In this document: positions 31,944-59,232 of the stretch, in pieces | Layout: each line of letters begins with the position of its first letter | Position numbering within the stretch: position 1 is the first letter of the stretch | DNA from: Methanolinea sp. | Lineage (GTDB): Archaea; Halobacteriota; Methanomicrobia; Methanomicrobiales; Methanospirillaceae | Reading direction: 5' to 3' | DNA: 64,000 nucleotides | Assembly: GCA_025453675.1 (NCBI GenBank) | Contig: JALOPW010000004.1 | Span: forward strand, 1 to 64,000 | Position numbers and translations under genes: made by a program | Notes under the pieces: model-generated | What the model saw: the letters and a program-made list of their open reading frames with translations, nothing else | What the model was told of the DNA's origin: nothing | Databases searched by the model: none

Positions 31944-32030
31944 TTAAAAACCCGGAGATGCGAACATACATTTGTGGACAGGATTTGATAAAGGAATGGG
32001 AAGTCTGTCCTCCCGGATTGGGCTTCAAAA

Positions 32031-32045
32031 GGAAATATTTATATA
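32031..32045 (+). promoter_or_regulatory. BRE/TATA promoter of cdrS-ftsZ2
   Basis: A strong archaeal core promoter: purine-rich GGAAA (BRE) followed by TATTTATATA at 32036-32045. Transcription would begin near 32065-32072, giving a leader of about 80 bases before the cdrS ATG. The palindrome array lies inside that leader. Confidence 0.65.
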
Positions 32046-32080
32046 CTATTTTGATAAAGTAGGTTTCATCTGCATAGTCA

Positions 32081-32134
32081 GACATTAGCAAGCTTAATGA
32101 CAGACAATTGTCTGACAATTGTCAGACTAATGTC
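32081..32134. promoter_or_regulatory. Phased palindromic operator array in the cdrS leader
   Basis: GACAATTGTC occurs perfectly at 32103-32112 and again at 32114-32123; a third, imperfect site, GACTAATGTC, is at 32125-32134. Weaker matches begin at 32081 (GACATTAGC) and 32092 (GCTTAATGAC). All five starts are 11 bases apart, about one DNA turn, so the sites face the same side of the helix. A small ribbon-helix-helix protein that binds as a chain of dimers, such as the CdrS product encoded next, is the obvious candidate; binding itself is inferred. Confidence 0.6.
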
Positions 32135-32151
32135 ATATCAGGAGAAAGGAA

Positions 32152-32328
32152 ATGAAACGCATCACCCTCAGACTGCCAGACCAGCAGATAGAGATGCTTG
32201 AGCAGATGGTGGCGGCAGGGGAGTTCCCCACTGTCTCTGAAGCAGTCCGGGATGCAGTTCGCCAGTTGATCGAGAGACGTGGCGGACGTATCCTCAAGGA
32301 GAGTGACCAGGTTTCATTCAAGGTTTAG
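32152..32328 (+). CDS. cdrS: Ribbon-helix-helix regulator of cell division (CdrS-like)
   Basis: A 58-residue ribbon-helix-helix (CopG/Arc-type) DNA-binding protein: strand [15 protein letters not shown], then [20 protein letters not shown] and RQLIERRG. It sits 11 bases before ftsZ2, as in haloarchaea, where CdrS controls cell division genes and is co-transcribed with ftsZ2. GGAGAAAGG about ten bases upstream is the ribosome binding site. The gene is short and could be overlooked. Self-control through the palindromes at 32081-32134 is likely. Confidence 0.82.
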
Positions 32329-32339
32329 GAGGGTCAACA

Positions 32340-33497
32340 ATGCAGAGTATTATCAATGATGCCCAGAAAAACTTTGAAATTGAGAAGGAACTGTCAAATT
32401 CCTCCAATTCAATCGATGATGAGTTCATAGGGCAACCTCGTATCGTAATCGTTGGCTGTGGAGGCGCCGGGAACAACACCATCAACAGGCTGCACCACAT
32501 GGGTGTCTCGGGCGCAGAGACCATCGCCATCAACACAGACAAACAGCACCTGGACATGATCCAGTCCGACAAGAGAGTCCTCATCGGCAAATCCCTCACG
32601 AAGGGACTTGGTGCCGGTGGATACCCCGACGTGGGAAAGAGGGCAGCAGAGATGGCCCGGCCCACGCTCGAGGCGCTCCTGGAGAATGCCGACCTCTGCT
32701 TCATTACCGCCGGGATGGGCGGTGGGACCGGGACCGGTTCCGCCCCCGTAGTGGCACAGATTGCAAAGGAGCAGGGTGCTATTGTCGTGGGCATGGTCAG
32801 CTATCCATTCCAGGTCGAGAAAGCCCGGCTCATCCGGGCAGAAGAGGGACTGGAAGCACTGGCCTCCGCCGCTGACTCGGTCATTGTACTGGACAACAAC
32901 AGGCTCAAAAATTTTGTACCCAACCTCCCGCTCGGACAGGCGTTCTCAGTGATGGACCAGCTCATCGGTGAGACCGTGAAAGGAATCAGCGAGACCATTA
33001 CACAGCCTTCGCTGATCAACATTGACTACGCTGATGTCAGGGCCATTATGAGCAAGGGAGGTGTGGCGGTGATGCTGGTCGGGGAGAGCAAGCAGCAGAA
33101 CAAGTCCGAGAGCGTGGTCCGCGAATGCCTGAGCAACCCGATGCTCGACATAGACTACCGCGGTGCTACGGGAGGACTCATCCACATCACCGGAGGCGGG
33201 GACCTCACCCTGCAGGACGCTGAGGAGATAGCCTCGTCACTCACCTACGAACTCGACCCCCATGCAGACGTCATCTGGGGGGCACGGGTAAAGAACGACA
33301 TGGAGGGGAAGGTCAGGGTGCTGGCCATCATGACCGGTGTCCAGACTGGAAAGATCATGGGGAGCAGGGTCTCTTACAAGACCATCATCGAGGACATTGA
33401 ACAGAAGAGAGTTGCCCCCAAGGCACCCCAGCTCCCGAAGAACAGGAAGTCACGCGACCAGACCGCAGGAGGTACATTACTCGAATGGGTAGGATAG
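32340..33497 (+). CDS. ftsZ2: Cell division protein FtsZ, FtsZ2 type
   Basis: Tubulin-like GTPase that forms the division ring, 385 residues. GTP motifs: [10 protein letters not shown] (38-47), the tubulin signature GGGTGTG (127-133), and LDNNRL. The T7 loop with the GTP-hydrolysing aspartates is [10 protein letters not shown] (224-233). The string [17 protein letters not shown] and the acidic N-terminal tail DDEF fit FtsZ2 rather than FtsZ1. GGAGGG ten bases before the ATG is its ribosome binding site. It follows cdrS closely and ends before a hairpin terminator. Confidence 0.93.
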
Positions 33498-58885: not shown

Positions 58886-59232
58886 GGAGAGGGAGAGTGC
58901 GGCCGACGGTGGCACACGATGCTGCTGAGGAAAGTCCCCCCACCTGCTGAGCGCGCAGCCGTATGCAAGTACGGGTGGCGAGAGTCACGGCAATGGCACA
59001 GAAACGACACGGCCTGCCCCCAGCCATGATGCGACCGAGCCCCCAGGGGCAAGGCATCGCGCTTTTACCGGGCGCTGATGACTCGCTGATGCGTAAGGGC
59101 AGGAATCGATGAAACGGTGAATCCCTGCGGGTGCAAGCCAAAACAGGGCATATGGGCCGCTCAGTGCCTGCCCGGGTATGGCGCGTAGCTGAATGCCGCA
59201 CCGAACAGAAGGGGGCTTACTCCTCCCACTCC
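58886..59232 (+). ncRNA. rnpB: RNase P RNA, archaeal type
   Basis: Catalytic RNA that matures tRNA 5' ends. The universally conserved regions are present in order: GAGGAAAGTCC near 58925 (CR-I), GCAAGACCG-type bases in the middle (ATGGCACAGAAACGACAC), and ACAGAAGGGGGCTTAC at about 59205-59220 (CR-V). The ends pair as P1: GGAGAGGGAG (58886) with CTCCCACTCC (59223-59232), one mismatch. A TATA-like TAAATAAT lies about 25 bases upstream. End points are estimated from P1. Confidence 0.88.

Follow-up and report, generated by a model that had tools for sequence, protein, structure and literature searches.

Which protein reads the evenly spaced repeats that lie between the promoter of the cell-division operon cdrS-ftsZ2 and its first gene, and what does it do there? 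We studied this in a stretch of 64,000 nucleotides of Methanolinea sp. (contig JALOPW010000004.1, positions 1 to 64,000), here called the window. An earlier note, made from the letters of this DNA, suggested that CdrS, the small ribbon-helix-helix (RHH) protein encoded by the operon, binds the repeats and controls the operon. It should be noted that control of division genes by CdrS in vivo is known only for haloarchaea (PMC7439475, PMC8406309). The comparisons described below make it quite probable that the repeats are the CdrS operator of the cdrS-ftsZ2 operon, occupied by cooperative dimers and serving negative autoregulation.

The operon and its leader

The cdrS gene (32152..32328, + strand) encodes a 58-residue RHH protein (Pfam RHH_1, 2.6e-9), and ftsZ2 (32340..33497, + strand; Pfam Tubulin and FtsZ_C) begins 11 bp 3' of it. 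In all loci checked for this, cdrS is followed by an FtsZ gene. As a short single-domain RHH_1 protein encoded directly 5' of ftsZ2, the product belongs to the CdrS family, and haloarchaeal CdrS is homologous to it, with 52-58% identity over the RHH part. Positions R3, T5 and R7 of the beta-strand are invariant in an alignment of 21 sequences, from methanogens to haloarchaea. The AlphaFold model of the monomer (mean pLDDT 81) has an extended N-terminus followed by two helices, and its best matches in the PDB are ParD-type RHH proteins, with weak E-values. In two loci, L030 and L051 (genomes G023 and G034), the cdrS frame runs to a TAG two codons short of its usual end, and the protein may simply end earlier there.

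The promoter, as read in the sequence, consists of the BRE AGGAAATA (32030-32037, + strand) and the TATA box TTTATATA (32038-32045, + strand). Between the TATA box and cdrS, repeats with an exact 11-bp step occupy positions 32077-32138. The five 10-mers reported earlier were all found with exact spacing, at 32081 (GACATTAGCA), 32092 (GCTTAATGAC), 32103 and 32114 (both GACAATTGTC) and 32125 (GACTAATGTC); the two copies of GACAATTGTC, described as perfect palindromes, are indeed perfect, and they are the only exact copies in the 1.84 Mb genome. The array is therefore real, but the 10-mer is not its unit: the unit that the relatives have conserved is GTCNGAC, and GACAATTGTC is made of two GTCNGAC half-boxes and a spacer. 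When two mismatches are allowed, the GACAATTGTC pattern is not enriched in the window; thus, the signal resides in the phased array and not in a single 10-mer. We dropped GACAATTGTC as the unit for this reason, and adopted GTCNGAC after inspection of the logo of the relatives and of the pairs at ftsZ1 (both described below).

In the GTCNGAC register, the array comprises box 1 (GTCAGAC, 32077..32083), with 6 of 6 letters matched and conserved in the logo of 57 relatives; slot 2 (GCAAGCT, 32088..32094), with 2 of 6, degenerate here and in nearly all relatives; box 3 (GACAGAC, 32099..32105), with 5 of 6; box 4 (GTCTGAC, 32110..32116) and box 5 (GTCAGAC, 32121..32127), with 6 of 6 each; and box 6 (GTCATAT, 32132..32138), with 4 of 6, which adjoins the ribosome-binding site AGGAG (32140-32144). 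No other six slots in the window score as high as the 29 of this array, and 100 dinucleotide shuffles of the window reach a maximum of 24. From the usual archaeal spacing, transcription is expected to start at about 32068; the array would then begin approximately 10 bp past the start site and run to the ribosome-binding site of cdrS.

This location raises the question whether the repeats work in the mRNA, as a structure or as a protein site for control of cdrS translation. They adjoin the ribosome-binding site within what is presumed to be the leader, and post-transcriptional control of cdrS-ftsZ2 has been suspected in Halobacterium (PMC8303175). However, the leader folds only mildly better than its shuffles (z -1.9), and RNA structure was rejected as the basis of the repeats on this ground. 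The Rfam search of the window yielded no family at the leader; its only match is the archaeal RNase P RNA (RF00373, 205 bits) at 58887-59231 (+). Moreover, a step of strictly 11 bp suits the DNA helix, and the same box pair at haloarchaeal ftsZ1 is located upstream of the TATA box, hence outside the transcript. We consider a role in the mRNA highly improbable.

Conservation of the array and its loss with cdrS

Among 61 relatives at the level of the order (Methanomicrobiales), cdrS was found in 57, and the upstream DNA of all 57 was compared. Three genomes apparently without cdrS (G003, G006 and G029) look like assembly gaps or incomplete genomes; G038 has neither cdrS nor ftsZ2. Absence of the palindromes upstream of cdrS in close relatives had been named as a possible refutation; instead, the array is present 5' of cdrS-ftsZ2 in essentially all 57. 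In a logo built by iterative leave-one-out alignment of these 57 relatives, most letters of GTC.GAC carry 1.3-2.0 bits every 11 bp, and the flanks drop to 0.1-0.4 bits. Pairs of boxes (at least 5 of 6 letters each) occur 82, 107 and 76 times at spacings of 11, 22 and 33 bp, respectively, compared to 4 or fewer at any other spacing between 7 and 34 and to approximately zero in shuffles. Of the 57 relatives, 56 reach a four-box score of 17 or more (out of 24), compared to 9-16 for ordinary 200-mers of the same loci, the higher control values being those of 200-mers that overlap the arrays themselves. A TATA-like box precedes the first array unit by 40-48 bp in almost all relatives. The array also extends to other cdrS-bearing families of the phylum, where it was found in most of those sampled (15 of 18 loci score at least 18), the longest one having about nine boxes (L103). 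In one relative (locus L061, genome G043), a perfect 36-bp inverted repeat, CTGACAAGAAGCTGCTCATGAGCAGCTTCTTGTCAG, lies within the array 5' of cdrS.

The exact pair GTCNGAC-N4-GTCNGAC occurs a single time in the whole genome, at 32110-32127 (boxes 4 and 5), and a wider regulon in this genome was rejected because of this single occurrence. In the relatives, too, exact pairs at places other than cdrS have about the frequency of a reversed-pattern control. In genomes of the Methanomicrobiales type, ftsZ1 and dacZ have no sites and were rejected as targets. Three loci have a second pair resembling GTCNGAC-N4-GTCNGAC (L133 at 1454, L134 at 1441 and L138 at 1518, in genomes G008, G004 and G019), located 5' of a small conserved gene (MRQAPVSVF.. 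or MRHTITEQY..) with the same neighbour gene in all three. It is possible that this is a second CdrS target in some relatives.

A single array per genome would also be expected of a centromere-like or nucleoid-like site, at which CdrS assembles and couples division to the position of the DNA, transcription control being secondary. RHH and tubulin-type plasmid partition loci consist of repeats, a small DNA-binding protein and a filament-forming NTPase, and the list of parts is the same here. Nevertheless, the array always lies between the promoter and the start codon, and the haloarchaeal boxes are present as pairs at unlinked genes, in the manner of a regulator. Such a function is hardly to be expected.

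In 17 genomes that have ftsZ2 and no cdrS match, the 200 bp 5' of ftsZ2 score 9-13, which is the background level. In G071, a single-contig genome, a frameshifted cdrS remnant (L324, 1296-1426) is flanked by a decayed array on one side and an intact ftsZ2 on the other; its congeners have kept both an intact cdrS and the array. All eight slots of the G071 array have lost letters, with 10 of 48 box letters changed, compared to 1 of 48 between two intact congeners. In G089, a faint remnant of the array is kept. The operator is lost with cdrS, both in the 17 genomes at background and in G071, where operator and regulator gene have decayed jointly, a natural knockout by which the two are linked.

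The boxes at haloarchaeal promoters

ChIP-seq of CdrS in Haloferax volcanii (H. volcanii) has identified ftsZ1 (motif at -50), hisB, dacZ, a PRC-domain gene and others as targets (PMC8406309). We scored 80 named ftsZ1 loci of haloarchaea, in which 12 other species of Haloferax take the place of H. volcanii. The pair GTCNGAC-N4-GTCNGAC, with at least 11 of 12 letters, is present in 76 of the 80 promoters. With other spacers (0-3 and 5-11), just 0-3 of the 80 loci reach at least 11 of 12, and shuffles never exceed 10 of 12. The pair begins 62-68 nt 5' of the ATG in 79 of 80 loci, just upstream of the BRE/TATA, and it is perfect (12 of 12) in all 12 Haloferax species. The tenth base of the Haloferax pair is 58 nt 5' of the ATG; with a start site some 8 nt ahead of the ATG, for which the TATA box speaks, this would agree with the motif position of -50 in the publication. 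For dacZ, 6 of 20 haloarchaeal promoters reach 11 of 12 or better.

A scan of the Haloferax marisrubri genome (G265) revealed 7 exact pairs, compared to 0 for the reversed-pattern control, and these include ftsZ1 and hisB, both of which are published ChIP targets of CdrS. With one mismatch, there are 50 sites versus 1 in the control, although the high G+C content of this genome makes them less specific; they include two PRC-barrel genes and a gene for a signal-peptide-like protein, kinds that are present in the published list, and these genes are likely to correspond to HVO_1691 and HVO_1944. The near-perfect pairs before the PRC-barrel genes lie in L363 at 823 and in L368 at 812, and one of the genes is oriented divergently to an infB-like GTPase gene. 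A role in haloarchaeal division has been reported for PRC-barrel proteins; therefore, control by CdrS may reach further into the divisome. GTCNGAC boxes in an 11-bp register are thus found at published CdrS targets also, a match that rests on orthologous promoters, the published text giving only the symmetry of the motif and its distance from start sites.

The haloarchaeal cdrS promoter itself is different: it has no GTCNGAC array (scores 11-16). Instead, GTAAGAC-N4-GTCTTAC, with at most one mismatch, was found in 24 of 30 haloarchaeal genomes, as a rule in a single copy, and in almost every case at the cdrS promoter. The promoter of cdrS-ftsZ2 is the sole reproducible ChIP site of CdrL in Halobacterium (PMC7439475), and GTAAGAC-N4-GTCTTAC at this promoter is therefore probably the CdrL box.

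The presence of CdrL, not CdrS, at the haloarchaeal cdrS-ftsZ2 promoter (PMC7439475) could suggest that another protein, a different RHH factor, binds the array in methanogens as well. A promoter under CdrL control presupposes that CdrL is encoded in the genome, and this is not the case here. CdrL (PF24252) was absent from all 61 relatives, with the positive control found in H. volcanii, and CdrL is ruled out as the binder of the array here by its absence from these 61 genomes. The disappearance or decay of the array along with cdrS, and the same box pair at the ChIP targets of CdrS, also argue against a different binder, which we regard as very unlikely.

The simplest reading of the haloarchaeal switch would be that CdrL took over the operator and that the specificity changed; the beta-strands of the two proteins differ (MxRVTLRIP in CdrS versus MSKITFRA in CdrL). 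We lean slightly toward the following scenario. The ancestral wiring in the phylum would be autoregulation of CdrS through the 11-bp GTCNGAC array; haloarchaeal CdrL, with its SKITFRA strand and GTAAGAC box, would have taken the operator over and turned a self-limiting loop into a CdrL-to-CdrS cascade, which freed CdrS for ftsZ1, hisB and others. If true, this would account for the published ChIP results, which have CdrL and not CdrS at the cdrS promoter.

Proposed regulation through the array and comparison with known operators

The predicted binding of CdrS to the array is strongly supported by sequence comparisons, namely by the box pair at known haloarchaeal targets, the loss of the array with cdrS and the absence of CdrL. 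The strict 11-bp phasing fits a cooperative tandem RHH operator. RHH dimers contact DNA through a two-stranded ribbon placed in the major groove, and their binding to neighbouring sites is cooperative (PMC5569661). The GTCNGAC box is symmetric and its step is 11 bp, so that dimers would line up on one face of the DNA. One CdrS dimer would occupy each box, with its beta-ribbon (R3, T5 and R7) in the major groove, and adjacent dimers, one helical turn apart, would touch each other. The stoichiometry and cooperativity proposed here predict that the perfect boxes (32110, 32121 and 32077) would be filled before the weaker ones (32099 and 32132). The cdrS promoter is not in the published ChIP list of H. 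volcanii CdrS (PMC8406309), which speaks against this reading; it should be noted that the array has been replaced in haloarchaea.

The sign of regulation is suggested by position. The boxes are located 3' of the TATA box and of the expected start site, which points to repression, i.e., negative autoregulation of CdrS and FtsZ2; the rule of the H. volcanii authors is likewise that a site downstream of the TATA box favours repression (PMC8406309). A filled array would block initiation or promoter escape, because it starts about 10 bp past the expected start site and extends to the ribosome-binding site. CdrS would thereby lower its own synthesis and that of FtsZ2, acting as a homeostat that fixes the level of division proteins. 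Conversely, haloarchaeal CdrS acts as an activator of ftsZ1 and ftsZ2 (PMC7439475, PMC8406309), so the sign could differ. CdrS on the array may activate, or may act in both directions, the promoter being helped at low occupancy and blocked at full occupancy. Halobacterium lacking cdrS fails to activate ftsZ2 (PMC7439475), depletion of CdrS lowers ftsZ1 in H. volcanii (PMC8406309), and boxes of graded quality would permit a two-step response. However, the site from which CdrS seems to activate ftsZ1 in H. volcanii is an upstream one (PMC8406309), and haloarchaeal activating sites lie upstream of the BRE/TATA, whereas the array lies between the expected start site and the gene. We consider activation or dual control unlikely, and repression by CdrS remains our preferred reading.

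If correct, this reading would give, letter by letter, the sequence that CdrS recognises; few regulators of archaeal cell division are known besides CdrS. It would also extend CdrS control from haloarchaea to methanogens, with a predicted operator. It predicts a self-limiting cdrS-ftsZ2 operon in methanogens, and suggests a way in which CdrL rewired the circuit in haloarchaea. A search of the open-access literature yielded two papers with CdrS as their main subject and no description of the array, of its letters or of CdrS autoregulation.

Operators of several contiguous boxes that are filled cooperatively, often in autoregulation, are known for tandem RHH systems of the MetJ, plasmid omega and CopG types. 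They resemble the array in this respect, and differ from it in other boxes and a shorter step (about 7-9 bp). The Arc repressor of phage P22 and AmrZ also place two RHH dimers on neighbouring half-sites, although these operators have one pair of half-sites, compared to the long array here, and are unrelated in sequence. The Arc operator has an 11-bp step; the half-sites of AmrZ are 5 bp apart (PMC3325190). F55 of the Sulfolobus virus SSV1 is an archaeal RHH protein with sites of two tandem repeats and an 11-nt consensus, but its sequence is ATAGATAGAGT, its repeats are only two and it regulates a virus (PMC5569661).

The closest comparisons are haloarchaeal. The CdrS sites of H. volcanii (ftsZ1, hisB and others; PMC8406309) share the regulator family and, at orthologous promoters, the GTCNGAC pair with the 11-bp step; in contrast, they are two boxes upstream of the TATA box at other genes, versus five or six slots in the leader of the regulator gene itself here, and autoregulation of CdrS was not reported there. 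Halobacterium CdrL (PMC7439475) is an RHH protein bound at the same promoter, with an 11-bp-step pair just after the TATA box, and it differs in its zinc ribbons, its beta-strand, its probable box GTAAGAC and its absence from methanogens. Tandem RHH operators are already known, and the array described here is a new, deeply conserved case on a cell-division operon.
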